Assembly: GCF_000621165.1 (NCBI RefSeq)
Contig: NZ_KK211218.1
Location: 117,196 to 181,195, forward strand
DNA: 64,000 nucleotides
Source of the DNA: Enterovibrio calviensis DSM 14347
GTDB lineage: Bacteria; Pseudomonadota; Gammaproteobacteria; Enterobacterales; Vibrionaceae
Direction: 5' to 3'
Shown piece by piece: positions 13,406 to 48,403 of this stretch. Under the pieces are notes generated by a model, which worked only from the letters and a program-made list of their open reading frames with translations, ran no database searches and was not told where the DNA came from. Numbering within the stretch: position 1 is the stretch's first letter; each line of letters begins with the position of its first letter. Made by a program: the position numbers and the translations under genes.

Positions 13406-13653
13406 AAAAAGGGCAGCGATGCTGCCCTCTCATAGGATGAATCAATTTCTTGGTGCCTAACGTTAGGCTCGGTTTGAAGCTATAGCGATTCCGCTAACGA
13501 TTCAAACGCCTCCAATTTAGCCTTTGAGGTTTCACGTGCTGCATTGGATGCACTCTCAGCCGAAGAGAAGGTGGCGATAACGACATTCTTATCTTGGTTG
13601 ATATAGAGGAACTGCCCGAATACGCCGCGATATGTCGCAATGTTCTTGTCTGA
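13406..13653 (-). pseudogene. Truncated duplicate of serine hydrolase 3' end plus terminator
   Basis: These 248 bases match 15392-15639 with about four mismatches. They contain the hairpin GGGCAGCGATGCTGCCC, the palindrome GCCTAACGTTAGGC and the last ~57 codons of the serine hydrolase at 15466-16767 (from SDKNIATYRGVFGQFLYINQ onward). The reading frame continues to 13698 only by chance, giving a short ORF. This is the left member of a direct repeat flanking the protease gene at 13745-15019. Confidence 0.9.
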
Positions 13654-13715
13654 TTCACATCCAAATGATGGGACAGACGCGATAAGAACTAAAAGCATAT
13701 ACTTGATATTGTAGC

Positions 13716-13743
13716 TACTTTTCTTAAAGTGCCTGTCCCCACT
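13716..13743 (+). repeat. AAAGTGCCTGTCCCC motif at edge of inserted gene
   Basis: Contains TTTTCTTAAAGTGCCTGT followed by CCCC, directly abutting the stop codon of the protease gene on the other strand. Related copies are at 21644-21671, 23258-23284, 24441-24466 and 25484-25510. Confidence 0.6.
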
Positions 13744-13744
13744 A

Positions 13745-15019
13745 TTAGTCCATATTAAACTCAGGGGCGTCAGTGAAATCGAGATGGCCGAGCTTTCCGT
13801 TTGCTACGACCACGGTAATAGGTCCGAAACTAGCACTACCTGTGTTGGCGTAAACTTTGTAAGTAGCGTTTGCCAATACACCGCGCATTTCATAATGCAG
13901 CTGGTCAGAAGTTACCAACGCGCCATCGTTAGAATAAGCGCCATCCAGACTCTCAATATAAAGATCTATATACTCACCGTAACCGGCTTTAGGAGTAAAA
14001 TCTTGACGATATGTTGTCGCGTCTGCCCACTCTCCAATTTGGTGTTTGTAAGTGCTTGGTACTCTTAATTCAGTGTAGGACGACGGTAGGGTCATGGAGT
14101 TCTCTAGAACTGATAATGCCTTATCGAAACTGGAGAAATCTTCATTACTATTGGACGAATTTTTCGAGTCGCGAATCAGTTGAATGATGCCCTCATTTGT
14201 TAGACCGTGTGCGCCCAAATACGCTAGCGATTCCAAGTAGATGCTGTAAGGATTGGTATATTGAGGATGGATGCTGGAAAATTCTTGTTCGTCATACCAG
14301 GTTTGGACATTAAATGGAGATTCTTTCGTTGTATCGACAAAGTCGTTGAGCGTTGTCGTCGTCAGGTTACCAAACGTAGCACCAGTAAAGAGCTCTGCTG
14401 TAGACTCGGTAAACCAGCGTGGCATTCTCAAAAAGGCTAGCTCGTCAATAAGTTGCATTTTGAATGTGTGGAACAATTCATGTTTAGCTAAGTCGTAACC
14501 TGATGTGAAGCGAGAGCTGTTTGGGTCAACTGATGTTGGAGAAAATTCAAACTTATCAATATAAGCGGTACCTTGACCAGTCTGACTTGAATCATAGCAG
14601 ACCGTCCATTTTTGGCTAATATCTAAATCTTCTGTCAGTGATAAACCGGTGTGTTCAATCAATTCCGCTAACGCGACTTCAGTCATGCGTGTGGCATCTT
14701 TCAGGTTGTCTATATTATTTGTTGGGAGGTCATAATGAAATGAAGCAACAAAGTGGCTCGTTTCAACTGTAATGTTATCACCAGAGCCACAAATGTCAGC
14801 AGTCTTCCCATCAGTGATAGCCACCTTTTGAAGTTCTAATTTAATTTTGGTGAGATCCCACGGAGTAATACCAAAGGCTCCATTTTGATTACCGCCACCA
14901 TCCCCACCGGTATTGATGTCGCCATTATTACCACTATTCGAATTTGATGAGTCGTCACCACCACATCCTGCTAGAGCAGCAGCGATTGAGAGAATGATGA
15001 GTGATTTTACTAGTTTCAT
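13745..15019 (-). CDS. Lipoprotein with gluzincin-type metallopeptidase motif (424 aa)
   Basis: A lipobox (IAAALAGC, acylated Cys at about residue 19) is followed by a flexible Asn/Gly/Asp/Ser linker to about residue 48, then a globular domain. That domain contains HELFH (residues 180-184) and, about 20 residues later, WFTESTAELF, giving the HExxH plus distal glutamate pattern of gluzincin zinc peptidases. The protein should be anchored in the outer or inner membrane facing the periplasm or outside. The substrate is unknown. The gene and its AT-rich upstream flank are bracketed by the 248-base serine-hydrolase duplication, marking it as an insertion. Confidence 0.75.
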   Translation of the reverse strand: MKLVKSLIILSIAAALAGCGGDDSSNSNSGNNGDINTGGDGGGNQNGAFGITPWDLTKIKLELQKVAITDGKTADICGSGDNITVETSHFVASFHYDLPTNNIDNLKDATRMTEVALAELIEHTGLSLTEDLDISQKWTVCYDSSQTGQGTAYIDKFEFSPTSVDPNSSRFTSGYDLAKHELFHTFKMQLIDELAFLRMPRWFTESTAELFTGATFGNLTTTTLNDFVDTTKESPFNVQTWYDEQEFSSIHPQYTNPYSIYLESLAYLGAHGLTNEGIIQLIRDSKNSSNSNEDFSSFDKALSVLENSMTLPSSYTELRVPSTYKHQIGEWADATTYRQDFTPKAGYGEYIDLYIESLDGAYSNDGALVTSDQLHYEMRGVLANATYKVYANTGSASFGPITVVVANGKLGHLDFTDAPEFNMD

Positions 15020-15391
15020 GTATTTTTAATGCCTATATCTTTTTATAAAACAATAATTATGAGTTATGGGTTTTTAATTCCGGGCTAATAATACATGTAT
15101 TGTGTAAGGTTAAATGAATGAAGCTCACAATAAGCTCCTTGTTTTAATTTGATATGGTTGCTGGTTGAGGGTTTATTTTTAAGATCGAAATTATGTGGTT
15201 AGATTAATATTAATCCATTCACTGGGTGTATATCTGCAAGCTAACTCAGTTGACTATTCAATCTAAACTGATATTTTTAAATATATATCCTCGGTTGATA
15301 ATTTATAATTATTTCAAAGGGTATAAGGTATTTCTAGCTATAAAATGCAATAGCAAACAGTTGCCTAAATTGCAGGAATACGAAAACCATT
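15020..15391. other. AT-rich non-coding flank of the protease insertion
   Basis: Markedly AT-rich and without a plausible ORF. It carries the protease promoter region and extends to the right-hand duplicate, which starts at about 15392. The composition differs from the flanking genes, consistent with foreign origin. Confidence 0.5.
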
Positions 15392-15396
15392 AAAAA

Positions 15397-15414
15397 GGGC
15401 AGCGATGCTGCCCT
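15397..15414. terminator. Hairpin downstream of serine hydrolase
   Basis: AGGGCAGC pairs with GCTGCCCT around a GAT loop, preceded by A-rich sequence that gives a T-run on the minus strand. It ends the leftward serine hydrolase transcript. The same hairpin is in the left duplicate at about 13410-13427. Confidence 0.75.
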
Positions 15415-15465
15415 CTCATACGATGAATCGATTTCTTAGTGCCTAACGTTAGGCTCGGTTTGAAG

Positions 15466-16767
15466 CTATAGCGATTCCGCTAACGATTCAAACGCCTCCA
15501 ATTTAGCCTTTGAGGTTTCACGTGCTGCATTGGATGCACTCTCAGCCGAAGAGAAGGTGGCGATAACGACATTCTTATCTTGGTTGATATAGAGGAACTG
15601 CCCGAATACGCCGCGATATGTTGCAATGTTCTTGTCTGAATCATGTACCCACAAGAAGTTTTTGTAGCCTTCTAGGTGCGAGTCAAACACGTTTCCGTCT
15701 TCATTTTTATACACGCTGTTCATCATGTGCGTGTTTTCGTCTTTGGTGATGTTGAAGCTGTCTTTCACCCACTTTTCAGAGAACACTTGTTCGCCGTTGT
15801 ATTCACCATTGTTAGCCATGGCGAGGCCCACGCGCGCAAAGTCTTTCAACGTGGTATTGAAGCCGCCTGTCGCCACAGGGTTGTAGTTTATGTCGGTAAT
15901 AAAGAACGCATCATGATTTACGCCGAGTTTGCTCCAAATATTATCTGCAATGTATTCGTTGAGCGGTTGGCCAGATACGCGAGCGATAATCCAACCAATC
16001 ACATCCACGTTAGGGCTATGGTATTCAAACTGGTGATTCACATCCAAATCGGCGTTCTTCTCAAACATTGGCGCAAAGCTCAACAAATCACGCGGTGTAT
16101 CTGTTTTCGTTGGATCTAAAGCCATTAGGTCGTAAGCCGGAATAAACCCTAAGCGGCGGAAGTATTCATAGTGCACATCGCCTGGCGCCATGTTTACGTA
16201 GTCTTCGCTGTAATCAATGGCGGTTGTCATGTTCAGCAGCGTGCGAATCGTTTGCTCACCAAAGTAAGAGCCTTTTAACTCATCAATATAAACACTGACT
16301 TTTTGGTCAACGTCGACTTTGCCTTGTTCAACCAACAAACCCAATGCCTGACCCACGAGAGATTTGGTGCTCGATGCCCACATATGATGGTCTTTGGCCG
16401 TGAAATCTCCGAAGTATTCTTCGTGTAGTATCTTTCCATCTTTCAGAATGATGTAGCCGTCAGTGCTGTCGTTAATCATGGCGTCGCGGAATGTTTGTGT
16501 TTCATCACCGTAAGTGAATTTGTGTTGAGCGACGTCTGGATTCAGCGCTTGCGGGATTTCATTGATGGCGCCATCACGAGGAACCATCACGCTTGGGTGA
16601 ATGCCCATATTTTGGAACGCCCATTGATTGAACGGCGCGTGAGTCCAGTTACTTAACGTCACTTGCTCATCTGCCTGTGCAGGCACGGTAGACATTGGTT
16701 TGATGTCCGCAAACGCGGTGGTAGAGAATAGGCCAGTAACGATAAGAGTAATAATTGATTTTTTCAT
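15466..16767 (-). CDS. Periplasmic class-C beta-lactamase-like serine hydrolase (433 aa)
   Basis: A Sec signal peptide (MKKSIITLIVTGLFSTTAFA) precedes a serine beta-lactamase/PBP fold. The SxxK motif is SSTK (Ser132, Lys135), and a YHS motif (EYHSPN, about residue 249) supplies the second catalytic element. The overall sequence resembles 6-aminohexanoate-dimer hydrolase NylB-type and esterase members more than true AmpC. Substrate could be an amide or ester. It is divergent from the LysR gene at 16945 with tandem repeats between them. Its last 57 codons are duplicated at 13406-13653. Confidence 0.82.
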   Translation of the reverse strand: MKKSIITLIVTGLFSTTAFADIKPMSTVPAQADEQVTLSNWTHAPFNQWAFQNMGIHPSVMVPRDGAINEIPQALNPDVAQHKFTYGDETQTFRDAMINDSTDGYIILKDGKILHEEYFGDFTAKDHHMWASSTKSLVGQALGLLVEQGKVDVDQKVSVYIDELKGSYFGEQTIRTLLNMTTAIDYSEDYVNMAPGDVHYEYFRRLGFIPAYDLMALDPTKTDTPRDLLSFAPMFEKNADLDVNHQFEYHSPNVDVIGWIIARVSGQPLNEYIADNIWSKLGVNHDAFFITDINYNPVATGGFNTTLKDFARVGLAMANNGEYNGEQVFSEKWVKDSFNITKDENTHMMNSVYKNEDGNVFDSHLEGYKNFLWVHDSDKNIATYRGVFGQFLYINQDKNVVIATFSSAESASNAARETSKAKLEAFESLAESL

Positions 16768-16944
16768 TTGAATTCCCCGTTAACAATCTTGTGTGTACGG
16801 GAGTAGATTAACTTGTTAGATTCGAACATATAAATCCAAAATGTACGCTTAAGCAGTACATGTGATTCACCGCCAAGCAGTACATGTGATTCACCGCCAA
16901 GCAGTACGCCTATGCCGTACCTCGGCAAAATGGAAGGGACACTG
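16768..16944. promoter_or_regulatory. Divergent control region with 24-bp tandem repeat
   Basis: A 24-base unit beginning AAGCAGTACATGTGATTCAC and ending CGCC occurs twice exactly (16851-16874, 16875-16898) and a third time in part (AAGCAGTACGCC, 16899-16910). TGTACGCTTAAGCAGTACA at 16842-16860 is an imperfect dyad. These repeated AGTACAT sites between a LysR gene and its divergent target are likely operator half-sites. Confidence 0.65.
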
Positions 16945-17832
16945 ATGATTTCGATGGAACAAGTGGCTTGCTTCACCAGTGTTTACGAGCTGCAAAGCTA
17001 CAGCGCAGCCAGCAATAAATTGGGGAAGGCGCGTTCAACGGTGAGAGAGCGCATAAACGCCCTAGAAGATATGATGGGGGTTGAGCTGTTTTCTATCGAG
17101 GGAAAGAAAGCTGTTCCGAATAACATCGCACATCGTCTTTACCCAAGGGCAAGGCTATTGGCGCGGCAATCGCTGGAGTTTGAAAACATCGCTTTGTCGG
17201 CCTACAAAGGCGAACTGAGTAATATCACCGTGTATCACGACAGCGCCATTCCTACCAAGCTGTTGCTGAATATCGACACAGAAATCAAAGCCCTTCATCC
17301 GCATATCATCATTAACTGGCTGCAAAGAGACAGGCACCATTGCCTACAACAAATCGAAGACGGCGACGCACTGTTCGCGATCATGCCAGGGATGGGCAAC
17401 CTTCATCCAAGTGCGGGTATCGGTAACATCAACCTTGGCACGTTTTCATTGAGTATCTTTACGTCTGTGCATTCAAGCATTCCCAATGCGCCTGTCTCTA
17501 TCGCTGAATTGGCAACCTTCCGACAGCTCGTCACCGAGAATGACATCGCCAATCAACTCAGACACACCAAAGTAAGCCACGAGTTTGAAGTGGTGACCTC
17601 ACAGCGTTTACTGATTGAAAAGCTCAAGCAGGGCGGGTGGACAGTGTGCTCGCCAGACGTGATGACACCGCACATAAAGAATGGCGACATTCGAGAAGTC
17701 GAATTGGAAGAAGCGCCGATGACAGTGCGACAAGATTGCATCCTGTTCTACAATCTCTCCTCCAAAGCCTCTCAGCAAGAGTCAGAAATTCTAGATGTGG
17801 TGGCGAAGGTGGCTAAGAGTTTGGATTTGTAG
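16945..17832 (+). CDS. LysR-family transcriptional regulator (295 aa)
   Basis: The ATG at 16945 follows GGAAGGGA. The HTH covers residues about 3-62 (SMEQVACFTSVYELQSYSAA, then LGKARSTVRERINALEDMMG). The effector domain is shorter and less typical than most LysR proteins. It is divergent from the NylB-like hydrolase, so control of that gene is likely. The repeats at 16842-16910 are its probable binding sites. Confidence 0.85.
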   Translation: MISMEQVACFTSVYELQSYSAASNKLGKARSTVRERINALEDMMGVELFSIEGKKAVPNNIAHRLYPRARLLARQSLEFENIALSAYKGELSNITVYHDSAIPTKLLLNIDTEIKALHPHIIINWLQRDRHHCLQQIEDGDALFAIMPGMGNLHPSAGIGNINLGTFSLSIFTSVHSSIPNAPVSIAELATFRQLVTENDIANQLRHTKVSHEFEVVTSQRLLIEKLKQGGWTVCSPDVMTPHIKNGDIREVELEEAPMTVRQDCILFYNLSSKASQQESEILDVVAKVAKSLDL

Positions 17833-17908
17833 CAATCGAACGTGCGATCGTATGGACGCTAGCTGTCGTATCACTCTGTTAAATCACAGTTCATGGATAA
17901 GAAAATAA

Positions 17909-18520
17909 ATGGAAAACACCCAACTCTTAAGCCTTTTTGAAAATGGTTTTCGAACGCGATTTACACTTTCAGATGAAGAGTGGATGGCCTTTATCGACAA
18001 AGGAGCGCTTCGCGCGTTTTCAAAAGGAGACGTGCTATTTCACGCGGGTGATATTGCGGACAAGCTCCGATTTGTCTGCTCGGGTACGTTTTGTAATTAC
18101 TACCTCACGCCAGATGGAACACGAAGAAACAAATCGTTTTTGCTAAGCGGCGACGTTTCAGCAAGCCTCTCATCCTTCGTGGCATCGCGCCCGACACGAT
18201 TCACCTGCGAAGCGCTAACGGAAGGCGTGTGTTTTGAAATATCTGCGTCCTGCTTAAAGCAGTTGAGCGAGAGTCACTCAGGGTGGAAAGATACGTTTCT
18301 TGCCATGGTAACGGCGCTTGCGATGAAAAAAGAGCAGAGGGAAGCCGATTTACTCCTGCTTTCATCCACTGAACTGTATCTTCAATTTGTCGATGCCCAA
18401 CCGGAATTGGCGGCTTCATTGCCGAACTACCACATCGCATCATACCTTGGGATCACCGAAGTCTCGCTCTCTCGTATTCGCGCGAAACTCGGAATGCAAA
18501 ACGCCTATCAACGTCAGTAG
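17909..18520 (+). CDS. Crp/Fnr-family regulator (203 aa)
   Basis: Residues 25-115 form a cyclic-nucleotide-binding-like beta-barrel (FSKGDVLFHAGDIADKLRFV, then CSGTFCNYYLTPDGTRRNKS). The C-terminal 60 residues contain an HTH (YHIASYLGITEVSLSRIRAK). No Fnr-type N-terminal cysteine cluster is present, so it is not an iron-sulfur oxygen sensor. It lies upstream of the SDR-DUF2141-VTT genes in the same direction (152-base gap) and may regulate them. Confidence 0.82.
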   Translation: MENTQLLSLFENGFRTRFTLSDEEWMAFIDKGALRAFSKGDVLFHAGDIADKLRFVCSGTFCNYYLTPDGTRRNKSFLLSGDVSASLSSFVASRPTRFTCEALTEGVCFEISASCLKQLSESHSGWKDTFLAMVTALAMKKEQREADLLLLSSTELYLQFVDAQPELAASLPNYHIASYLGITEVSLSRIRAKLGMQNAYQRQ

Positions 18521-18672
18521 ATTCCTGCGTTTTTATAGCGAAGGCCAGAGCTAATACTAGGGTTAAATGTTCACTGTACTGGCAGAAAACGTAGGCGTTT
18601 TAACATGTGTTAATTTGTTTTGGTTGTCGGTTCATTACGATGAGTTCCATATCATTCAGATAGGGACACATC

Positions 18673-19404
18673 ATGAAGCTAACCAACAAAAGTATTGTGC
18701 TAACGGGCGGCACGTCCGGCATCGGGCGAGCGCTGGTGGAATGCTTGGCCGAGACAAATCAACTGATCGTGATTGGTCGGGACGCCGAGAAACTTGATCA
18801 CCTAAAACGTGACTGGCCATCAGTTATTACTTACCGCGCCGATCTTTCCGATGTGAAAAACGTCCATTCCATCGCGCATTCTATTCAGCAACAGCACCCC
18901 AAAATCGATGTATTGATAAACAATGCCGCAGTGCAATTTACGCCATTTTTTAACGATGATCGCTTCGAATTCGATTCCATTCAGCACGAAATTGACACCA
19001 ACTTCACCTCGGTGTGTGCATTAACGCATGGCTTATTGCCGTCACTGTTGGCGGCATCCTCATCGCGAATCGTGAACGTTAACTCCGCGCTTGCGTTAGT
19101 ACCTAAAGCATCTTCAGCGGTGTACTGCGCAACCAAAGCCGCGCTCAATATCTTCTCTCAAAGTTTACGTTATCAATTTGAAGGCTCTGCAATGGGTGTT
19201 CAGCAGGCATTCTTGCCGCTGGTGGACACAAAAATGACCACGGGCAGGGGCAAAGGAAAGATAAGCGCGTCGTCGGCAGCGTTTGAAATCATTGCGGGTA
19301 TCGAGAAGGGAAACAGGGATTTTGATATCGGGATGACGCGATTTTTGAGAGTGCTGCTCGCTATCGCCCCCTTTGCCGCGAAAAAGCTGTTAAAGGGGTC
19401 ATAA
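18673..19404 (+). CDS. Short-chain dehydrogenase/reductase (243 aa)
   Basis: Classical SDR: cofactor loop TGGTSGIG at residues 11-18, NNA at about 87, catalytic Ser (NVNSAL) near 138 and YCATK (Tyr/Lys) near 151-155. The arrangement resembles DltE/YdfG-like oxidoreductases using NAD(P)H; the substrate is unknown. The gene starts after a GGGACACATC context and its stop abuts the next start (TAAATG), so it forms an operon with the DUF2141 and VTT genes. Confidence 0.88.
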   Translation: MKLTNKSIVLTGGTSGIGRALVECLAETNQLIVIGRDAEKLDHLKRDWPSVITYRADLSDVKNVHSIAHSIQQQHPKIDVLINNAAVQFTPFFNDDRFEFDSIQHEIDTNFTSVCALTHGLLPSLLAASSSRIVNVNSALALVPKASSAVYCATKAALNIFSQSLRYQFEGSAMGVQQAFLPLVDTKMTTGRGKGKISASSAAFEIIAGIEKGNRDFDIGMTRFLRVLLAIAPFAAKKLLKGS

Positions 19405-19851
19405 ATGACGTTGAAGCAAGCGGTGATTGCCATGATTTTAGGAGGAATATCGATGAGTGTTGATGCGTTAGAAAACAGTGTAGAAATACGGGTTAAGGGG
19501 ATTGATACAAGCCGGCCTGGGCAAATATTGGTGATGTTGTTTCAAGAGGAAGGGTTTCCTAAGGTGCATGACAAAGCACTGAGCATTCTGCGTTATCCAT
19601 CCACGGACAGTGAGCGCGTTGTTGTGTTTGAAAACGTACCAACATTGTTCGCAATTAAAGTTCTTCATGATGAAGACGAGGATGGCAAGGTCACTAAGAA
19701 TTGGACGGGTATCCTTCCCAAAGAGGGCTTGGGGTTCTCCCAAGGGGCGCGTATTACCTATAAAGCGCCGAGCTTCTCTAGCGCACGTTTGTCCGTTGCA
19801 GAGCTTCAAGAAAGCAACGCGCCACATGACATCACCATGCGTTATCCCTAG
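19405..19851 (+). CDS. DUF2141-domain periplasmic protein (148 aa)
   Basis: Starts directly after the SDR stop codon. A signal peptide covers about residues 1-21 (AVIAMILGGISMSVDA), then a beta-sandwich domain containing GQILVMLFQEEGFP and AIKVLHDEDEDGKVTKNW, which match the DUF2141 pattern (VxVxxxF, HDENxNGKxD). The acidic DEDEDGK loop could bind calcium. Function is unknown. It is translationally coupled to the SDR and 8 bases upstream of the VTT gene. Confidence 0.8.
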   Translation: MTLKQAVIAMILGGISMSVDALENSVEIRVKGIDTSRPGQILVMLFQEEGFPKVHDKALSILRYPSTDSERVVVFENVPTLFAIKVLHDEDEDGKVTKNWTGILPKEGLGFSQGARITYKAPSFSSARLSVAELQESNAPHDITMRYP

Positions 19852-19859
19852 GAGGATTT

Positions 19860-20528
19860 ATGACATCACTCATCAAATTAATGAGCCTAATGGCCATCTT
19901 TTTTGCATCAACATTTTTAGTGGTCAACGGCCTTGGTTGGTTGTCCATGGAGAGTATCGAGCGCTGGCTCATTGCAGCTGAGTCCGTTAATGCCTTAGTG
20001 GTTGCAGCAATAGTGATTTCATTGCTTTTCTTAGACCTTTTCATCGCCGTGCCGACGCTTTCCATCATGATGTTAGGCGGCTACTTTGCAGGGCCTTACA
20101 TTGGCGCGCTGGCGGCATTTATCGGCACATTCTTGGCGGGTGTAGTGGGCTATGGATTGAGTTATTTCTTTGGTGACCGACTGCTCAATGTGGTGATTAA
20201 AGACAAGGCAAAACAGCGAGATCTTCGCCATAAGTTTCGTGAACATGGCGTGCTGATGATTCTGTTGTCCCGCGCGCTGCCGATCCTCCCAGAAGTGACC
20301 GCCTGTATGTCAGGGATCAGCCACATGAAGTTCATGACGTTTGTTTTATCGTGGATAACGGTGACATTGCCGTACACCATCATCGCGGCTTATGCGGGGT
20401 CTATTAGCTCGCTTGATAATCCTAAACCTGCCATTTTGACTGCCGTTGCACTCACGTCTTTCTTCTGGTGTGGCTGGCTACTGTTGAACCGCTATGGTTT
20501 TCGCAAAGAGGCTAATTCCGAGCTTTGA
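19860..20528 (+). CDS. VTT-domain (DedA/TVP38-like) membrane protein (222 aa)
   Basis: Starts at ATG 19860 after GGAGGATTT. About five membrane segments. The core has FIAVPTLSIMMLGGYFAGPY and a downstream RALPILPEVTACMSGIS segment typical of the VTT/SNARE-associated Golgi family. Members act in membrane lipid or small-molecule flux; the specific role is unknown. Its last 13 codons and downstream hairpin are duplicated, with substitutions, at 21684-21730, beyond the LysE-family gene. Confidence 0.85.
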   Translation: MTSLIKLMSLMAIFFASTFLVVNGLGWLSMESIERWLIAAESVNALVVAAIVISLLFLDLFIAVPTLSIMMLGGYFAGPYIGALAAFIGTFLAGVVGYGLSYFFGDRLLNVVIKDKAKQRDLRHKFREHGVLMILLSRALPILPEVTACMSGISHMKFMTFVLSWITVTLPYTIIAAYAGSISSLDNPKPAILTAVALTSFFWCGWLLLNRYGFRKEANSEL

Positions 20529-20645
20529 TCGCTAGATTCCTAGGGGGAAGTGACAGCGTCGCTTCCCCAATTAACTAACCAAACTCTTCTTCATGTTGTG
20601 GCTAACGACTTGATAACCCATGCTTGAATAGAGTGACTGAGCCGC
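20486..20645. repeat. Left copy of VTT/GNAT 3'-end direct repeat
   Basis: Contains the true VTT gene end, a hairpin and a truncated copy of the last 24 codons of the GNAT gene (leftward, 20573-20645). The right copy is at 21684-21849. The GNAT tail is almost identical in both; the VTT tail and spacer differ more. Confidence 0.9.
20544..20568. terminator. Hairpin after VTT gene
   Basis: GGGGAAGTGAC pairs with GTCGCTTCCCC around AGC. It lacks a long T-run, but it sits between convergent gene ends. A near-copy is at 21747-21772. Confidence 0.65.
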
Positions 20646-20677
20646 TTACTTGCGCTTTACGCCTTACGAAATCACGC

Positions 20678-20768: not shown

Positions 20769-20867
20769 ATGAAACGTTCCATCCAAAAAGAATGTTTGTC
20801 TCATTGGGGAATGACGGAAACGGGTAAGCTTTCGGGGCAAAAACTCGTTATGCTTGGCGGGCAATGA
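20769..20867 (+). CDS. Possible 32-residue leader peptide
   Basis: ATG after GAGAGGAACG encodes MKRSIQKECLSHWGMTETGK, then LSGQKLVMLGGQ and a stop, 39 bases before the exporter gene. The RBS is good and it sits inside the presumptive transcript, but such a short ORF could be chance or a remnant of a longer gene. Confidence 0.3.
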   Translation: MKRSIQKECLSHWGMTETGKLSGQKLVMLGGQ

Positions 20868-20906
20868 CGCTTTGTGCATTTCTCACGCTAAGAAGGAGCT
20901 TACCCG

Positions 20907-21554
20907 GTGCTAGGAATCGAAAACATTTGGTTATTTATTATCTCAGGTTTCCTACTCAACATGATGCCGGGGCCTGATTCATTGCTCATTGCTGGTCGTG
21001 CGGCCAGCCAAGGATTTAAAGCGGGTTCTGCTGCGGCTTTAGGAATTGGGAGCGGAACGCTTATTCATGTTTTTGCGGCGGCATTCGGGCTTTCGGCCAT
21101 TATGGCGACATCTGCAACGGCGTTTACTGTCGTGAAAATGCTCGGTGGTCTGTACCTGATCTACATGGCCGTGACGATGTTAGCGGGAAGCATGAAGAAC
21201 ACGAATGAACACCGCGCCAATTTGCCGCCTCAGCCCGCTAAAACATCCTTAATGAAGATTTACTCTCAAGGGTTTGTCACGAATGTGTTCAACCCTAAAG
21301 TGGCGATTTTTTTCCTCGCGTTCGTACCGCAATTCATTTCAGATACCAGTGAGAACAAAGCGCTGGCCTTTATCGTGCTTGGCCTTATTTTTAACCTTAA
21401 CGGCATGATTTGGTGTCACTTCATCGCTTGGGCTTCTTCGCTGATTAGTCACAAACTGTCGGTGAGTGATTCTGCCCAGAAATGGTTAACCCGACTCTCT
21501 GCGAGTTTGTTTGGCTTTTTCGGTATCAAGCTTTTGATGTCGACGCAAGATTGA
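20907..21554 (+). CDS. LysE/RhtB-family amino-acid exporter (215 aa)
   Basis: The GTG start at 20907 follows AAGGAGCTTACCCG. Six hydrophobic segments. The N-terminal signature PGPDSLLIAGRAASQGFKAG is diagnostic of the RhtB/LysE family, and GFVTNVFNPKVAIFFLAFVPQF is the second conserved block. It exports amino acids or related metabolites from the cytoplasm; the substrate is not deducible. It lies between two direct repeats made from the ends of its neighbours, so it is probably a recent insertion. Confidence 0.88.
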   Translation: MLGIENIWLFIISGFLLNMMPGPDSLLIAGRAASQGFKAGSAAALGIGSGTLIHVFAAAFGLSAIMATSATAFTVVKMLGGLYLIYMAVTMLAGSMKNTNEHRANLPPQPAKTSLMKIYSQGFVTNVFNPKVAIFFLAFVPQFISDTSENKALAFIVLGLIFNLNGMIWCHFIAWASSLISHKLSVSDSAQKWLTRLSASLFGFFGIKLLMSTQD

Positions 21555-21643
21555 TCAAACAAATAGCACCTTGTTCACTATGTGATCCAGCGGGCTCCAT
21601 TTGATTGCATCGTGCATAACACCTTTTATGATGACGGCGTGTG

Positions 21644-21671
21644 GTGCTTTTCAAAAAGTGCCTGTTCCCGC
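21644..21671 (+). repeat. AAAGTGCCTGTTCCC motif at insertion edge
   Basis: TGCTTTTCAAAAAGTGCCTG followed by TTCCCGCT, 12 bases before the right VTT/GNAT repeat begins. It is a relative of the motif at 13716-13743 and in the 23-25.5 kb repeats. Confidence 0.6.
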
Positions 21672-21683
21672 TATTGCTTTTTA

Positions 21684-21849
21684 GAACCGCTATGGTTTTC
21701 GAAAATCGGCTAATTCCGAGCTTTGATCGTTATATTGTTGGGGCTAGGGGAAGTGACAGCGTCGCTTTCCCCAATTAACTAACCAAACTCTTCTTCATGT
21801 TGTGGCTAACGACTTGATAACCCATGCTTGAATAAAGTGACTGAGCCGC
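21684..21849. repeat. Right copy of VTT/GNAT 3'-end direct repeat
   Basis: Starts with a remnant of the last 13 VTT codons, including the stop (FRKSANSEL against FRKEANSEL in the intact gene), then the hairpin GGGGAAGTGAC...GTCGCTTTCCCC (21747-21772) and the true GNAT end. The remnant has no upstream VTT coding sequence. Confidence 0.9.
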
Positions 21850-22263
21850 AGAATTATGGCTAAAAACGTGAAGGCCAAGGCTGGTTGCACCAAGATCAGA
21901 CGCTACCGTTTCAATGCAGCGAAGGGCTGATTTGGCATAGCCTTTGCGGCGATAACCTTCGAATATGCCGACACCATAGATAAACGCAGTTTTCGCCCCA
22001 AAATGGGTTTCAATTTTCACCCAAATGTATCCAACGTTTTGGTTCGTCGCGCTTTCAATGATGTTGAATAAGTGGTCGTCTGGGCTGTTTAACCCCTCTG
22101 GCAAAAGTTGCGCATAAACCTTTTTCGAGCGTTCCAATGCGTCGGATTTTTCCCACCGACCAGACTCGACATTGTCATGCGCGTAAGAGGGGATGGCGAA
22201 TTGCAAATACTCGGAGAATGACGCTGAATCCATGGCTTCTAAAGAAACGTGTATACCATCCAT
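21775..22263 (-). CDS. GNAT-family N-acetyltransferase (162 aa)
   Basis: GNAT fold with acetyl-CoA-binding loop EGYRRKGYAKSAL (about residues 101-113), a preceding beta-4 strand (TAFIYGVGIF) and a C-terminal NSAAQSLYSSMGYQVVSHNM motif. It acetylates an unknown small molecule or protein. ATG at 22263. The last 24 codons also occur as a truncated copy at 20573-20645. Confidence 0.85.
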   Translation of the reverse strand: MDGIHVSLEAMDSASFSEYLQFAIPSYAHDNVESGRWEKSDALERSKKVYAQLLPEGLNSPDDHLFNIIESATNQNVGYIWVKIETHFGAKTAFIYGVGIFEGYRRKGYAKSALRCIETVASDLGATSLGLHVFSHNSAAQSLYSSMGYQVVSHNMKKSLVS

Positions 22264-23111: not shown

Positions 23112-23142
23112 GGAGGCTAGGCTGATTATTTCATTTGTGGTC

Positions 23143-23288
23143 AAAATGGTTGGCAATCAAACAATATGAAAAGCATATCGTTCCGAAGCCACCCATTCAT
23201 CTTTACTAGGCGTCTTTGAGCTTGGGGGCGCTGAATTTATGCAAGTGATAATATTGTACTTTTCTAAAAGAGCCTGTCCCCGCTAATC
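23143..23288 (+). repeat. Structured intergenic repeat, copy 1
   Basis: About 145 bases beginning AAAATGGTTGGCAATCAAAC and ending in AGCCTGTCCCCGCT. Homologous to 24330-24470 and 25370-25510. It contains an inverted-repeat head (AATGGTTGGC / GCCACCCATT, one mismatch) enclosing ATATG / CATAT. The left extension seen in copies 2 and 3 is missing. Confidence 0.85.
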
Positions 23289-24182: not shown

Positions 24183-24242
24183 TTTATCCTTGTCTGTTTT
24201 GTTAGGGATTTGCGAAAAAAGAATGATAAAGTTAGAGTCACA

Positions 24243-24470
24243 ATCGCCGAACACAACGTGAAACGCATTGGTAGTAAGGGGTTGCGTTGATACTGATGAG
24301 AGACGTACGGGGTTTAGTCATTAGCAATAAAAATGGTTGGCAATCAAGTAATATGAAAAGGATATCGTTCAAAAGGCAACCATTCATCTTTACCAAGCGT
24401 CTTTGATCTTGGGAATGCTGAATGCATGTATCTGATAATGTCTTTCTTAAAGTGCTTGTCCACGCTATTC
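24243..24470 (+). repeat. Structured intergenic repeat, copy 2 (extended)
   Basis: The core is 24330-24470. An additional left part from 24243 (ATCGCCGAACACAACGTGAA) is shared with copy 3 only. It ends AAAGTGCTTGTCCACGCT at 24449-24466. Confidence 0.85.
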
Positions 24471-24982: not shown

Positions 24983-25282
24983 TTCAATATTCCTTTTCTA
25001 CACATAGCAACCTTACTGAAGGTGGCGTATTCAAGTAAGGTCAGTTTCTTGCGTTGATTGCAAAATGTCCTTTTACTCTCGCCTCCATACATCTGTGGCT
25101 TACCTTCAGTTGTTCGCCCGATAACTGAATATTCAAAGTGATGGTAACAGTATCTCGCGCTAATTAGTCTTTTATGTCAGAGGCATACGGAGTGATTCAC
25201 AGTTTATAGGTTCTAGCTGCCATTGCTTGGAAAACGTTGCTAAAGGATCACTGGGCTTTTTCATCATACCCACAAAGAAATG
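24983..25282. other. Intergenic region with no gene seen
   Basis: Upstream region of the leftward 24494 gene. No ORF or terminator stands out. Confidence 0.4.
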
Positions 25283-25510
25283 ATCGCCGAACACAATGTG
25301 AAACGCAGTGATCGTAAGGGGTTGCGTCGATACTGATGAGGGATGAACGGGGCTTAGTCATTAGCAATCAAAATGGTTGGCAATCAAACAATATGAAAAA
25401 CATATCGTTCCGAAGCCAACCATTCATCTTTAATCAGCGCCTTTGAGCTTGAGGGAACTGAATACATGCAACTGATAATATTGTGCTTTTCTAAAACTAA
25501 CAGTCCCAGT
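25283..25510 (+). repeat. Structured intergenic repeat, copy 3 (extended)
   Basis: Best-preserved stem-loop: ATGGTTGGC (25373-25381) and GCCAACCAT (25415-25423) are perfectly complementary and enclose ATATG-AAAAA-CATAT. The right end (CTTTTCTAAAACTAACAGTC, then CCAG) is the most diverged version of the shared motif and directly abuts the stop codon of the HNH gene. Confidence 0.85.
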
Positions 25511-42913: not shown

Positions 42914-43774
42914 ATGAAAATACCGACAAGGTTACTGCCATTGGTTGAAGATGGCATGGTTGATGAAGTGATTTCTCAGCTAATGAGTGGCAAAGAAGCT
43001 GACGTTTTTGTTGTTTCGAGCAATGGAAACATTTGCTGCGCCAAAGTGTATAAAGAAATCGATCAGCGCAGCTTCAAGAAAGCCGCTGCTTATCGAGAAG
43101 GACGTAAAGTCCGTGACAGTCGCCGAGAACGTGCGATGTCGAAAGGTTCGAAGTTCGGACGAGAAGAAGCAGAGAAAGTGTGGCAGAACGCAGAGGTTGA
43201 CGCTTTGTATGCGCTGTCAGCGGCGGGTGTTCGTGTTCCTACGCCATTAGGTTGTGTAGATGGCGTGCTTTTGATGGAACTCGTTACTGATGATCAGGGC
43301 AGTGTTGCACCACGTTTGAACGATGTGACGCTCACCAAAGAACAAGCATTGAGAGACCATGCCACGGTGATCCAAGACGTGGTTCGTATGCTTTGCGTGG
43401 GTATCATTCACGGCGACTTATCAGAATTCAATGTACTGGTTGATCACCTCGGCCCCGTTATTATCGATTTACCACAGGCTGTGGATGCATCGGCAAACAA
43501 TAACGCGAAGTGGATGCTAGAGCGTGACGTGAATAATATGACCAACTATTACGGTCAATACGCGCCAGAGTTGATTGGCACGCAATACGCTAAAGAGATG
43601 TGGGCGCTTTACGAAGCGGGTGATCTCACGCCGAATACTGAACTGACCGGGATTTATGAAGATGATGGCGAGGACGCTGACGTCGACGGCCTAATGGCCG
43701 AAATCAATGCCGTGATGGAAGAAGCAAGGTTGCGTAAAGAGCGCCGAATGGAAGCTGAATCTGACAGCGAGTAA
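42914..43774 (+). CDS. RIO-type serine/threonine protein kinase (286 aa)
   Basis: RIO1-like kinase: a glycine-poor nucleotide loop with SGKEADVFVVSSNG (about 25-38), conserved Lys in CAKVYKEI, catalytic IIHGDLSEFNVLV (about 165-177) and metal-binding IIDLPQAVD (about 184-192). Cytoplasmic ATP-dependent kinase, probably linked to ribosome or translation functions in bacteria, but substrates are unknown. The C-terminal tail (MAEINAVMEEARLRKERRME) is acidic/basic and is present again as a fragment at 46333-46428. Confidence 0.9.
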   Translation: MKIPTRLLPLVEDGMVDEVISQLMSGKEADVFVVSSNGNICCAKVYKEIDQRSFKKAAAYREGRKVRDSRRERAMSKGSKFGREEAEKVWQNAEVDALYALSAAGVRVPTPLGCVDGVLLMELVTDDQGSVAPRLNDVTLTKEQALRDHATVIQDVVRMLCVGIIHGDLSEFNVLVDHLGPVIIDLPQAVDASANNNAKWMLERDVNNMTNYYGQYAPELIGTQYAKEMWALYEAGDLTPNTELTGIYEDDGEDADVDGLMAEINAVMEEARLRKERRMEAESDSE

Positions 43775-43996: not shown

Positions 43997-45373
43997 ATGA
44001 ACACCATGTATCAAGACAGTCGAGGTCTTTCCTATTCAGGAACAGATGAAGAAGGTATCGCAAAATTCGAAGCAGCAATGGCATGGAATTTCGATTATCG
44101 ACCGAATGGATTAGAAAAGGTCGATGCATTGCTAGAGGCGTATCCAGATTTTGTCATGGCATGGGTACTAAAGGGATACAGCATTGCAAGTGAAGGGCGC
44201 TTCGAAGCGCTTGGTAATATCCCTCTCTCGTTTATTGAAAGCAGCAGTATTGCTGCAACCCAAAGGGAAAGGAGGCATGTTCTGGCATTGTCTGCCTATG
44301 TACGAGGGGACATAAAGAAAGCGGTTGAAATTTGGGCCGATATTTTGAATGAATGGCCACTGGACTTACTTGCGTTCCGACAATCGACTGGGGTCTTATT
44401 CTGGATGGGAGAACGTCAACGCTTGGTAGATACCGCTGCAAAAATAGCGCCTCATTGGACTGAGAATACTCCTGGATATGGCTACTTTATTGGTGCTTTC
44501 AGTTTCGCACTGGAAGAGGTTGGGGAATATACAACTGCTGAAAAATACGCACGCCGAGCTGTCGAAATAAACCCATCCGATATGTGGGCAGTGCATTCCA
44601 TGGCGCATGTTTTGGAAATGAATGCGAGGACGGACGAAGGCATCGTCTGGATTGAAGAAAGGCATGGGCGACTGCCAACCCACAATGCGTTTGTGGGTCA
44701 CATATGGTGGCACCTCGGTTTGTTTCACTTAGAGAAAGGCAACATTGATAAAGTATTGTCTTTGTTTGACCAGTATATATACCCAGAAGCCTCATCGTTT
44801 TACCTGAATGTGCAAAACGGTGCCTCTTTACTTAAACGCTTGGAGTTTGTTGGTGTAGATGTGGGTCACCGATGGGAACGATTATATGAGGGCGTCAGAG
44901 AATCCGTCGGCGACTACCTGTTTCTATTCACAGAACTGCATGTAGCGATGGTGCTGAGTCGCTCGGGCAATGCTTATCAGCTTTCACATCTTCATTCGTC
45001 TTTGTCTGACTGGAGCAAATTAAGATATGCCAATGAAACGGCGATCACCCAACAGTTAGTGTCAGGTATCGCAGCGTATGAAGATAATCAGTATGGCATC
45101 GCGTCAGAAAACATACTCCCTCAACGTTATAACCTATCTGTCCTTGGTGGAAGCCATGCCCAACAAGATATTCTCTCTCAATACCTCATTAATGCTGAGT
45201 ACAAAAGCGGTAACTACAATGCAGTGACTGGATTAATGAAAGAGCGAGTATCTCGTCGAACGCAATGGGACCAAAAGCCAGAGCGATTCATGGAAATGTG
45301 GCATCAAATTGAAGCCATAAAAGATGGCGTTTCAAACGATGTGTTTTATCAACTGCTTAGAAAGGTTCATTGA
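43997..45373 (+). CDS. TTC38-like tetratricopeptide repeat protein (458 aa)
   Basis: Helical TPR protein with repeats around residues 75-260 (for example YTTAEKYARRAVEINPSDMW, AVHSMAHVLEMNARTDEGIV). The HSMAHVLEM, GHIWWHLGLFHLEKGN and SFYLNVQNGASLLKRLE blocks resemble eukaryotic/bacterial TTC38 proteins. Starts at ATG 43997 after AGGGAGATGA. Cytoplasmic scaffold of unknown partner. It is followed 87 bases later by the DsbA-fold gene, probably the same transcript, and sits in the gap between RIO and the CDP-alcohol transferase. Confidence 0.8.
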   Translation: MNTMYQDSRGLSYSGTDEEGIAKFEAAMAWNFDYRPNGLEKVDALLEAYPDFVMAWVLKGYSIASEGRFEALGNIPLSFIESSSIAATQRERRHVLALSAYVRGDIKKAVEIWADILNEWPLDLLAFRQSTGVLFWMGERQRLVDTAAKIAPHWTENTPGYGYFIGAFSFALEEVGEYTTAEKYARRAVEINPSDMWAVHSMAHVLEMNARTDEGIVWIEERHGRLPTHNAFVGHIWWHLGLFHLEKGNIDKVLSLFDQYIYPEASSFYLNVQNGASLLKRLEFVGVDVGHRWERLYEGVRESVGDYLFLFTELHVAMVLSRSGNAYQLSHLHSSLSDWSKLRYANETAITQQLVSGIAAYEDNQYGIASENILPQRYNLSVLGGSHAQQDILSQYLINAEYKSGNYNAVTGLMKERVSRRTQWDQKPERFMEMWHQIEAIKDGVSNDVFYQLLRKVH

Positions 45374-45460
45374 GGCATACGGGATTTAATGCCTTAGGCA
45401 AGGCAAAGTGAGCAAACAAAACAGTGTTAATTATGGAAGCAATCATAAGGAAAATTAGGC

Positions 45461-46096
45461 ATGTCAGTCACCATCAATTTTTATAGCGACTTGCTTTGCT
45501 TTTGGGGTTGGGTGGGTCAGCAACACAATGACAAGTTGATGCCGCTTTGCAATGCCAATGTGGAATGGAAGCACCATTGTTTAGCTTTGTACGGAAACGT
45601 GCCTGAACGAATGCATGCGCTTGGGGCAGGAGACAAAGGTTACATGAAATATGCTGAAATCACGGAGCGGTTAATGGGACGTTTTGATGGGTTAGATGTT
45701 CACCCAGACCTATGGCGAAAAGTGCGACCCACTAGTTCATTAATGCCGCATCAAGCGATTAAAGCGGTTAGGTATGTTGCAGGGGAAAAAGAGGCACATG
45801 ATGTTGAACGTGCTCTGCGCGAGGCATTGTTTTGTGATGCCCGCGACATTAGCCACTTTGGTGTGATAAAAGACGTTCTTGTCGACCTCCATTTGGCTGT
45901 GCCTGATGTGATTGAATGCCTGCAGAGTGGACATGCGTTAGCCAAGGTCTATGGCGACATCAAACGCGCTGAAGCGGATAAAGTGCCGGGTAGTCCTGCT
46001 TGGATCTTTGATGAAGGACGATATCGTTTTTTTGGTCAAGTTGATGTTGAGTCTCTGGCATTTGCCATTAATCGTGTCGCGGAAAAGAACGCTTAG
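45461..46096 (+). CDS. DsbA-fold (FrnE/HCCA-isomerase-like) protein (211 aa)
   Basis: Thioredoxin-like DsbA domain: N-terminal NFYSDLLCFWGWVGQQHNDK where FrnE-type proteins carry CPWCY, here only one cysteine (CFWG). The helical insert and GSPAWIFDEGRYRFFGQVDV C-terminal block match the DsbA/HCCA-isomerase family. Loss of the CxxC argues against disulfide exchange and for a glutathione-dependent isomerase-like or binding role. Starts at ATG 45461. Last gene before a terminator at 46137. Confidence 0.82.
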   Translation: MSVTINFYSDLLCFWGWVGQQHNDKLMPLCNANVEWKHHCLALYGNVPERMHALGAGDKGYMKYAEITERLMGRFDGLDVHPDLWRKVRPTSSLMPHQAIKAVRYVAGEKEAHDVERALREALFCDARDISHFGVIKDVLVDLHLAVPDVIECLQSGHALAKVYGDIKRAEADKVPGSPAWIFDEGRYRFFGQVDVESLAFAINRVAEKNA

Positions 46097-46203: not shown

Positions 46204-46336
46204 TTACTCGTCGGCGTTATCCACTTTCAACGTTTGATAACCCGCCTAAACCTGAGTTGCTGTTGTCACCCAACACAGTGCGCCAAAGGACCAAGCGATT
46301 TCGGCAAAGTAGCCTGGGAATAAACAGAACAGGACG
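46204..46336 (-). pseudogene. Fragment of a diverged CDP-alcohol transferase 3' end
   Basis: Homologous to the last ~43 codons of the gene at 47789-48403, but with a nonsense change (TGG to TAG, in TATRVWAGY) and a different tail (AGYQTLKVDNADE against AGYNTLKTSD). The fragment is therefore a distinct allele, not a fresh copy. Confidence 0.8.
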
Positions 46337-46428
46337 TCGACGGCCTAATGGCCGAAATCAATGCCGTGATGGAAGAAGTAAGGTTGCGTAAAGAGCGCCG
46401 AATGGAAGCTGAATCTGACAGCGAATAG
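46333..46428 (+). pseudogene. Fragment of RIO kinase 3' end
   Basis: Matches the last ~32 codons of the RIO kinase gene (43679-43774) with one amino-acid change and a different stop codon (TAG). It is fused directly to the CDP-alcohol transferase fragment with AGGACG shared at the joint. Confidence 0.85.
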
Positions 46429-46501: not shown

Positions 46502-46641
46502 ATTTTTGTCGTTCTGAAACATGTAACGCACAAAGACTTCCTGATAGAAATCAGAAAAGTAGAAAAGACGGCGCACAGATGAGACCATACCGTTTTGTAT
46601 GAATCTTGCCCACAATGCCCACGATGAGCACAAGGATGACG

Positions 46642-47721
46642 ATGAGAACAAGAGTGACAGGGTTTGATGTCGCCAGAGCATTGGCTATTTTCGGTATGGT
46701 TATCGTGAATTTTAAGATAGCCATGAATGCTGAAACTGGATCATCACTTTTACTGGCGTTCTCAGCGCTATTCGAAGGGCGAGCGTCCGCATTGTTTGTG
46801 ATCCTTGCTGGTGTGGGGGTGACATTTCTAACCAACAAAGCCCGAGAAGCAAATAACCCAGACCGTGCAAAAAAAGCAGCGTATGCCCTGATTAAGCGAG
46901 GGGTACTATTAGTGGCGATTGGCCTCCTTTATGTGCCTATTTGGGAAGCTGATATCCTGCATTTTTATGGCTTCTACTTTCTGATTGCAGCGGCAGTTTT
47001 TATGCTAAGTAATCAGCGCTTGCTGCTCGTTTCGGTTGGAATCATGTTCGCTTTTCCATTGTTAATGATGGTGTTCAATTATGATGCCAATTGGGATTGG
47101 GACACGCTGACTTACCAACACTTTTGGACAGTAGACGGCATGTTTCGTCATATTGTATTCAATGGTTTTCACCCAGTGTTTCCATGGGCTGCTTTTCTGG
47201 TGTTTGGCATGTGGCTTGGCAGGCAAGATCTGTCTCAGCCTGCATTAAGAAAGCGCTTGTTCATCCAGAGCATGGTCACTTTCGTCGTTATAGAAGCCGT
47301 ATTTTGGGGATTAAGAACCATCGTCGGAAATGGCAGTGAATTCGAACTAACGCCGGAAGAAGCGACATTGCTGTTTTCGACCTCAATCATTCCACCATTG
47401 CCTCAGTACATGCTTTCGGCTGCGAGTTCCGCGGTGATGGTACTGATAACTTGCCTCTATCTTTCCGATAAATTCTCAAGCAGTCGCATCCACTTTTGGC
47501 TCAATCAAACAGGAAAGATGTCGCTGACACTCTATGTGGCACACGTGATCATTGGTTTGGGTGTATTGGAAGCATTAGGACGATTAAGCGACGAGTCGAT
47601 TGAGTTTTCTTTGCTCAGTTCTTTGGTTTTTTGTATTTTCAGCGTGATATTTAGTGTTGTTTGGTTACGGTTCTTTTCCTCTGGGCCTCTTGAATGGCTG
47701 TTTAGAAAAGCGGCGACCTAA
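46642..47721 (+). CDS. DUF418/acyltransferase-like membrane protein (359 aa)
   Basis: About nine membrane segments. The opening TRVTGFDVARALAIFGMVIV and the FNGFHPVFPWAAFLVFGMWL and FWLNQTGKMSLTLYVAHVII segments match DUF418 proteins. Several upstream ATGs or a TTG (46606) are possible; ATG 46642 fits the family N terminus and follows AAGGATGACG. Function unknown, perhaps acyl transfer across the membrane. It lies between the gene fragments and the intact CDP-alcohol transferase, so is part of the imported segment. Confidence 0.78.
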   Translation: MRTRVTGFDVARALAIFGMVIVNFKIAMNAETGSSLLLAFSALFEGRASALFVILAGVGVTFLTNKAREANNPDRAKKAAYALIKRGVLLVAIGLLYVPIWEADILHFYGFYFLIAAAVFMLSNQRLLLVSVGIMFAFPLLMMVFNYDANWDWDTLTYQHFWTVDGMFRHIVFNGFHPVFPWAAFLVFGMWLGRQDLSQPALRKRLFIQSMVTFVVIEAVFWGLRTIVGNGSEFELTPEEATLLFSTSIIPPLPQYMLSAASSAVMVLITCLYLSDKFSSSRIHFWLNQTGKMSLTLYVAHVIIGLGVLEALGRLSDESIEFSLLSSLVFCIFSVIFSVVWLRFFSSGPLEWLFRKAAT

Positions 47722-47736
47722 GCGAAGATGAACAAA

Positions 47737-47767
47737 AAGGATGTGAGCGATTCATGCTCACATCCTT
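47737..47767. terminator. Terminator between DUF418 and CDP-alcohol transferase genes
   Basis: AAGGATGTGAGC pairs with GCTCACATCCTT around GATTCAT; T-run weak, serves convergent genes. Confidence 0.7.
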
Positions 47768-47788
47768 ACGTTGAAACGCTAAATAGAT

Positions 47789-48403
47789 TCAGTCCGACGT
47801 TTTTAATGTGTTGTATCCCGCCCAAACCCGAGTTGCTGTTGTCACCCAACACAGTGCGCCAAAGGTCCAAGCGATTTCGGCGAAGTAGCCTGGGAATAAA
47901 CAGAACAGGACGAAACAGGCGATGGTTTCGGTGCCTTCGGTTAATCCGCCAATGTAGTAAAGCGACTTGCTTTTGTACACGGGGTTTTCAATGTTGCGCT
48001 TGCTCGCCATCACTGCAAAGGCAAGGAAACTCGAACCCGTTCCCATGAAAGAAAACACCAAGAAGGTTGCCGCGACGGCATTCTGTTCAGGGTTTGCTAA
48101 AGCGAAGGCGAACGGGATCATGGCGTAGAACAAGAAATCGAGCGTGATATCGAGAAACCCGCCAGCGTCAGTAATACCTTGTCGCCGAGCGAGAGCGCCG
48201 TCTAGTCCATCAAATATCCGATTTAGCGCAATAAACAATAGCCCAAGCCAATAGTTCTCAGTGGCAATCGCAGGCAGCGCGAGCAAACCAATTAGAAAAC
48301 CCACCACCGTGACCTGATTCGCTGAGCAACCGATTTTGTCCGGCAGTTTTGCCGCTTGTTTAAGTGGCCATCGAATGATGGGGATGGCGTAGCGATCAAG
48401 CAT
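47789..48403 (-). CDS. ynjF: CDP-alcohol phosphatidyltransferase, YnjF-like (204 aa)
   Basis: Six-segment membrane enzyme with the signature DGLDGALARRQGITDAGGFL followed by DITLD, i.e. the DGxxARx8GxxxDxxxD motif that binds CDP-alcohol and metal. It transfers a phosphatidyl or phospho-group between a CDP-alcohol and another alcohol in the inner membrane. It overlaps the ABC ATPase gene by 8 bases and ends the cluster, as ynjF does beside ynjBCD in E. coli. Start ATG 48403. Its 3' end also exists as the diverged fragment at 46204-46336. Confidence 0.82.
   Translation of the reverse strand: MLDRYAIPIIRWPLKQAAKLPDKIGCSANQVTVVGFLIGLLALPAIATENYWLGLLFIALNRIFDGLDGALARRQGITDAGGFLDITLDFLFYAMIPFAFALANPEQNAVAATFLVFSFMGTGSSFLAFAVMASKRNIENPVYKSKSLYYIGGLTEGTETIACFVLFCLFPGYFAEIAWTFGALCWVTTATRVWAGYNTLKTSD

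Follow-up and report, generated by a model that had tools for sequence, protein, structure and literature searches.

Gene additions beside duplicated core-gene tails in Enterovibrio calviensis, with insertion sequence ends at two of three seams

Three loci with duplicated gene tails

The subject here is a stretch of 64,000 nucleotides from Enterovibrio calviensis DSM 14347 (contig NZ_KK211218.1, positions 117,196 to 181,195; called the window, and numbered from its own first letter), in which three loci carry accessory genes beside truncated direct copies of the 3' ends of core genes. The pattern is real, locally clustered, and explained in part by a known kind of mobile element, for which an active role is plausible and unproven. 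To our minds there is about an even chance that at each locus two alleles of the same intergenic site were fused in tandem by single-crossover integration, with the closing joint at the end of a small insertion sequence (IS) at loci 1 and 2 and at a microhomology at locus 3.

All of the tail repeats in the original prediction, which was made from the sequence of the window by itself, were confirmed, and in each pair one copy goes with an intact gene while its partner is a stump. At locus 1 the direct repeat is 252 bp long (13406-13657 and 15392-15643, with 247 of 252 columns identical, 98%), and the order is a LysR gene, the 252-bp copy of terminator and 3' tail, an accessory gene of 424 amino acids (aa), and an intact beta-lactamase-family gene. 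The repeat at locus 2 covers the tails of DedA and GNAT genes (20486-20645 and 21684-21849, 166 bp, 91%), and there the order is a VTT/DedA gene, a hairpin, a GNAT stump, a LysE-family gene, a DedA stump, a hairpin, and the intact GNAT gene. The tail duplications predicted for locus 3 are also present, one of the RIO1 tail (43679-43773 and 46333-46427, 98%) and one of the pgsA tail (46225-46336 and 47801-47912, 91%), but they enclose two inserts and not one, in the order RIO1-X1-pgsA'-RIO1'-X2-pgsA, with primes marking the stumps. At its seam, the pgsA stump is fused to the RIO1 stump with a 4-bp overlap, GACG, which is a microhomology.

At locus 2, the genome G013, a relative, has the DedA tail, hairpin, and GNAT gene without the insert, in agreement with the right copy of the window, and the stretch just past the DedA stop in that copy is identical to G013. 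The comparison thus sets an insert between long direct repeats against a relative with one copy and no insert, with the qualification that DedA in G013 is broken further upstream. The two copies at locus 2 agree in 55 of 69 columns on the DedA side and in 96 of 99 on the GNAT side, so the locus reads as a mosaic of two lineages, which supports two parents. The genome G002 encodes a 95% match to the LysE protein, and the DNA homology of the LysE block to G002 stops exactly at the edge of the locus-2 terminus; within 5 kb around the G002 LysE gene there is no other similarity to locus 2.

For locus 3, four relatives (G002, G006, G012, and G013) have RIO1-X1-pgsA, that is, X1 only, and a fifth, G014, has no insert, with about 94 bp separating the aligned RIO1 and pgsA parts. 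X2 is unmatched at E ≤ 1e-30 in the other 17 genomes of the genus that were searched, and a search of 79 other relatives gave 2 matches (50% and 48%). At E ≤ 1e-20, 2 of 79 other relatives match accessory gene X of locus 1, the best at 36% identity in G011, which is within the genus. The tail repeat is absent at 13 homologous beta-lactamase-family loci within the downstream DNA examined, which extends 275 bp at L283, about 2.3 kb at L289, and 4-6 kb at the other 11. As a separate observation on these relatives, window 21684-31999 is 94-95% identical to G013 where aligned and the aligned pieces at 39.5-50 kb are 67-84% identical, which suggests, as a reading of sequence divergence, a recent exchange with that lineage.

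A genome-wide scan had been proposed as a way of finding further tail repeats. In direct pairs of at least 50 bp and at least 75% identity, taken from C1:1-800000 and C3:1-460000 (the window included, 1.26 Mb of 5.5 Mb), no further case appeared. The scan gave 35 direct-repeat pairs, 26 on C1 and 9 on C3. An intact gene end paired with a stump is seen only in the 4 that belong to the three window loci; the remainder fall within long or paralogous open reading frames (ORFs), are remnants of IS, or consist of intergenic or MITE-like sequence (MITE, miniature inverted-repeat transposable element). Since there is no other pair of the stump type, the tail-duplication events are a local cluster in 35 kb and not a genome-wide mode over the 1.26 Mb scanned. 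Two other kinds of repeat on C1 were encountered along the way. The 86-bp hairpin-like intergenic repeats at C1:389171-389256 and 390692-390776 (77%) surround a 370-aa ORF without gene tails, possibly an old event of similar kind, and palindromic repeats at C1 384385, 692674, and 755846, ending CCCAAG...ACCTGAAGATG, are probably another MITE family.

The edge motif and its insertion sequence

The motif GTGCCTGTCCCC, allowing at most 1 mismatch, occurs 3 times in the window against a chance mean of 0.09, and a degenerate form of it is found at 5 places, 2 of which are the seams of loci 1 and 2. Its reverse complement lies within GGGGACAGGCACTTTAAGAAAA, the upstream end of an IS of about 1.3 kb, and when the DNA upstream of transposase copies in relatives is aligned, the similarity ends at about the motif. 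There are 29 inverted-terminus pairs spaced 1.2-1.45 kb apart, some of which share a terminus. These alignments identify the edge motif as one end of an IS of roughly 1.3 kb whose transposase is RAYT-like (Y1/HUH); relatives have the IS intact, here it is decayed, and loci 1 and 2 each have such a terminus at the seam. The view that no recombinase is visible has to be given up, as remnants of the transposase N-terminus are encoded at 25239-25367 (E = 6.4e-13) and 24223-24327 (E = 2.0e-7).

A weight-matrix scan for termini over the same 1.26 Mb gives 4 sites scoring at least 23, a cut that was set afterwards, and all of them are in window 13719-24465. On C1 there are 4 weaker termini with scores of 19.3-22.0, and the reversed-sequence control has 0 at 18 or above. 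Transposase matches are found in 15 of 18 genus genomes, and at E ≤ 1e-20 in 53 of 150 genomes of the family. Beside the IS remnants themselves, it can be recorded that window 22900-26650 and G013 (L086, L085) have one common segment, 94.7% identical and bounded by IS remnants, between the GNAT gene and an RND gene; in this interval the segments on either side of the common one differ between the two, in the manner of a cassette array.

The transposase is about 320 aa long, and H71, H73, and Y183 are invariant in 12 of 12 aligned proteins, giving an HUH motif and a single tyrosine, with Y183 the presumable catalytic residue. The NCBIfam model REP_Tyr_transpos matches 4 of 4 proteins (E = 4.6e-10 to 1.7e-9, 37.7-39.5 bits), which is below its 80-bit cut-off, and Pfam Y1_Tnp is below cut-off in 5 of 5 transposase proteins. 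The search of the own genome with Y1_Tnp gives 0 matches at E ≤ 0.01 because this transposase family is distant from that model. The best fold match is to the RAYT structure 4er8 (probability 1.00, E = 0.003), obtained with a low-confidence model of mean predicted local distance difference test score 56, and no sequence match worth naming was found between the transposase and any solved structure. Oppositely oriented terminal repeats flank the transposase gene, as in RAYTs. The likeness to RAYTs and REP/REPIN elements thus comprises the transposase, the inverted terminal motif, and the short derivative with paired termini at locus 1. The difference is that REPtrons are described as apparently not transposing as a unit, in the passages available from PMC2817692 and PMC6006769, whereas the IS here forms multi-copy 1.3-kb units with their protein of about 320 aa.

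Two other systems were considered and set aside. An integron array in the window is rejected, as the repeats at 23131-25514 are upstream regions of transposase genes, two of them with the transposase start. One integron integrase scores over cut-off in the genome, at C7:271010-271951 (448 bits), and none does on the contig of the window, C3. The DNA beside that integrase (C7:271900-277932; L296 from 271900) is highly repetitive and presumably a cassette array, and its comparison with the window gives no match at E ≤ 0.01. A scan with a simple attC pattern found nothing even in this presumed array and is hence uninformative. One-ended transposition of the ISCR/IS91 kind is rejected too, the termini here being inverted repeats and the fold matches being Y1-type transposases.

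Termini and gene-tail repeats in other Enterovibrio loci

Whether gene-tail repeats keep company with these termini elsewhere was surveyed at 137 termini in 43 loci, namely 40 chosen for holding a transposase, the window, and two G013 stretches. The control was 27,552 random points in the same loci, at least 1.5 kb from any terminus and with no IS filter, and the terminus count kept non-IS direct repeats only (before that filter it was 18 of 137, mostly IS against IS). On the inner side, 5 of 137 termini abut a non-IS repeat with its partner across the element, against 60 of 27,552 control points (one-sided Fisher p = 1.8e-5). The five are all gene-tail cases, two in the window and one each at L133, L142, and L213, the latter three with the same architecture of truncated tail, terminus, insert, and intact gene, and the repeats around the inserts are 129-285 bp long. 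L127 looks alike, but its partner copy holds a gap of N, and it was left out of the count.

A different arrangement is seen in truncated IS copies arrayed head to tail, all beginning at one constant point; at L140 8230-12315 there are 11 such units, which share the IS end where they begin and are cut off at different places. At L262, which belongs to another genus, a 58-bp repeat of terminator and tail stands on both sides of an IS that is the sole insert. Apart from these, L260 8479-11016 has two IS copies, 99% identical, directly in tandem.

Features of the window

The features of the three loci and the IS remnants are collected in Table 1. Elsewhere in the window, 1-6265 holds large internally duplicated repeats, which we take to be of RTX type, and a gene similar to this repeat gene is directly left of the broken DedA in G013. 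There is an exact 24-bp tandem repeat at 16851-16898, just upstream of the LysR gene at 16912, and a c-di-GMP-I riboswitch on the minus strand at 56048-56143.

Table 1. Coordinates of features at the three loci and of the IS remnants, in window numbering
Feature	Position	Strand	Basis
LysR-family regulator, left neighbour of locus 1	12338..13315	+	Pfam LysR_substrate, HTH_1
Truncated copy of terminator and 3' tail, beta-lactamase-family gene	13406..13657	-	Identity to 15392-15643
Inverted IS-terminus pair, MITE-like, 76 bp, between truncated tail and insert	13667-13690 (+), 13719-13742 (-)		Weight-matrix scores 15.6, 32.1
Accessory gene X of locus 1, 424 aa	13745..15019	-	No Pfam family at E ≤ 0.01
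Intact beta-lactamase-family gene (PF00144), to which the duplicated tail belongs	15466..16767	-	Pfam
VTT-domain (DedA-like) gene, intact, 3' tail duplicated	19860..20528	+	Pfam VTT_dom
Locus 2 left copy: DedA tail, terminator-like hairpin, truncated GNAT tail	20486..20645		Sequence comparison
LysE-family block (gene 20907-21554)	20780..21647	+	DNA 93% identical elsewhere in relative G002
Solo IS terminus, locus 2 seam	21648..21671	-	Weight-matrix score 23.1
Locus 2 right copy: truncated DedA tail, hairpin, intact GNAT tail	21684..21849		Sequence comparison
Intact GNAT acetyltransferase gene	21775..22263	-	Pfam Acetyltransf_1
IS remnant 1: upstream region and terminus	23131..23283	-	Repeat comparison, weight matrix
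IS remnant 2: transposase N-terminus, upstream region, terminus	24223..24465	-	Repeat comparison, transposase match, weight matrix
IS remnant 3: transposase N-terminus, upstream region, decayed terminus	25239..25510	-	Transposase match, weight matrix
RIO1-domain gene, intact; tail 43679-43773 duplicated	42914..43774	+	Pfam RIO1
X1: TPR protein and DsbA-like protein	43997..46096	+	Domain search and loci of relatives
pgsA tail, truncated copy	46225..46336	-	91% to 47801-47912
RIO1 tail, truncated copy, 4-bp overlap with pgsA copy	46333..46427	+	98% to 43679-43773
X2: HGSNAT/DUF418-type membrane protein	46606..47721	+	Domain search
CDP-alcohol phosphatidyltransferase (pgsA-like), intact	47789..48403	-	Pfam CDP-OH_P_transf

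Discussion

If two alleles were fused at each locus, the DNA of the alternative allele would comprise the accessory gene and the 3' tail of the flanking core gene, and one crossover in the tail common to both alleles would bring it in, in the form of a circle or tandem molecule, with the outcome that both core genes are intact and a truncated tail is left at the closing joint. Integration of a circle or concatemer by homology, which the original prediction had put forward, fits all three loci, and the two-lineage mosaic at locus 2 fits with it. The repeat edges coincide with the stop codon or come within about 20 bp of it at L127, L142, L213, RIO1, and pgsA, and the repeat similarity ends at the end of the terminator in locus 1 and L262; judging by position, these edges look like the natural divergence of two alleles and not like a joint. 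On that reading of the edges one true joint per event would be enough, with allele A running to a point in the tail and being joined there to the IS end of allele B. For loci 1 and 2, we infer that the RAYT-like transposase had an active part in the closing joint, in that the Y1 enzyme would open one IS end and this end would be joined to DNA in the neighbouring gene. Counting in favour of a part for the IS are the termini at both seams, the intact 1.3-kb elements of relatives, the inner-side excess over control points in the survey, and the array at L140. The joint of locus 3 would have been made at its 4-bp microhomology without an IS. The IS may also be what brings the events to convergent 3' ends, because it appears to prefer A-rich places, terminator tracts among them.

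A stronger claim can be built on these steps, in which the RAYT-like Y1 transposase drives additive gene capture: an IS end is opened and joined inside a neighbouring gene, homologous recombination inserts a circle of IS end, accessory gene, and gene tail at the 3' end of the gene, the core genes stay intact, and cassettes accumulate at convergent ends as an integrase-free cassette system. We consider this rather unlikely. A precise product of one-ended transposition is weakened as a candidate by the filler at the joints. In all five gene-tail cases 5-25 nt of foreign sequence separates the tail from the terminus, and therefore the joints are not precise transposase products.

That filler is one of several points that weigh against the fusion of alleles at IS ends. 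Locus 3 has no motif and no IS terminus at its seam, so that the sequence-specific edge suspected by the original prediction is found at loci 1 and 2 and its single common mode for all three loci is not supported. The prediction had counted against itself a scan with no surplus of such events, or different mechanisms at each locus; there are no more events in the 1.26 Mb and the mechanism at locus 3 differs, while loci 1 and 2 are alike in having the IS terminus. In the survey, the inner count without the six termini of the window falls to 3 of 131 (p = 0.003), and the outer side is raised too, with 3 of 137 (L137, L138, L141) against 58 of 27,552 (p = 0.003). With partners on the outer side also raised, the excess of repeats at termini is not clearly directional. 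Among 20 loci of one other genus, g12 (G135, G148, G149, G150), L262 is the single gene-tail repeat, so generality outside the genus is not shown. No full-length uninterrupted transposase was found in the own genome, where the best copy has a stop, and the comparison includes no conspecific strains to display the two parental alleles. DedA in G013 is broken upstream beside a weak terminus (score 17.3) without any duplication, hence such joints also arise otherwise.

This last joint speaks for another account, in which two alleles, one with an IS copy in its core-gene tail and the other with an IS copy beside its accessory gene, would be fused by homologous recombination of the two copies, the seam being an ordinary IS insertion site. 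The spread of the transposase through the genus is in keeping with it, and IS-bordered tandem duplications by alternative pairing in transformation are known in pneumococcus, going by the accessible part of PMC3784515. Yet the interval between tail and terminus is unlike the continuing gene in L133, L142, and locus 2, where a plain insertion site would match, and loci 1 and 2 retain only short termini and no whole IS, which makes us think the explanation improbable. The filler and the 4-bp microhomology speak for homology-facilitated illegitimate recombination after DNA uptake, in which one end of a linear DNA pairs with the core-gene tail and the other joins illegitimately further in, duplicating the tail, the IS ends being merely ends of donor fragments or of breaks. 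For the gene arrays of Vibrio cholerae a similar process has been put forward, in which an illegitimate joint is anchored by homology, in the available passages of PMC5361080. Acting alone, it leaves unexplained both the excess of IS termini at joints and the constant start of the 11 units at L140, and we hold it to be a doubtful though serious contender. Least to be expected is insertion in one step with a long target duplication, by staggered breaks some 60-290 bp apart that are filled in around an IS-borne insert. The length of the repeats in the five gene-tail cases would suit this, and so would L262 with its IS alone between 58-bp repeats, but at locus 2 the mosaic divergence, with flanks that diverge from the stop codon on, points to two parents, and locus 3 has two inserts. 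We would be surprised if it were the cause.

Several described systems resemble the three loci in part, each as far as the passages available from its source extend. Insertion with long target duplication is described in Helicobacter (Nobusato et al. 2000, via PMC1643837), and is like the present case in having genes between long direct target repeats that were found by comparison of related genomes; it is linked to restriction-modification genes, whereas here there are RAYT-like IS termini at 2 of 3 loci and core-gene 3' ends. In a laboratory observation described as hard to explain, an IS stood between two copies of a duplication (Ngan et al. 2024, PMC11708052). There too an IS parts the two copies without an ordinary target duplication, but that IS is an IS481 and the duplication is about 60 kb, in place of a Y1-type IS end, 58-285 bp, and a gain of accessory genes. 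In complex class 1 integrons with ISCR1, copies of a shared segment flank the IS and a captured gene, a layout put down to readthrough beyond one end of the IS together with homologous recombination (PMC7707992); ISCR1 is IS91-like and has no terminal inverted repeats, and the present IS has them together with a Y1-type transposase. The immunity-gene arrays of Vibrio cholerae, a species of the same bacterial family, grow by additive gene acquisition at 3' regions, but they are effector-immunity loci, and no IS termini are described at their joints in those passages of PMC5361080. In the open-licence literature searched, no report was found that links RAYT-like IS ends to such gene additions.

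The addition of single genes between core genes without a phage, plasmid, or integrase is poorly explained so far. If the ends of a common small IS are indeed the seams, a single transposase gene together with a marked allele would allow the process to be tested, and repeats of gene tails would be a searchable scar of allele fusion.

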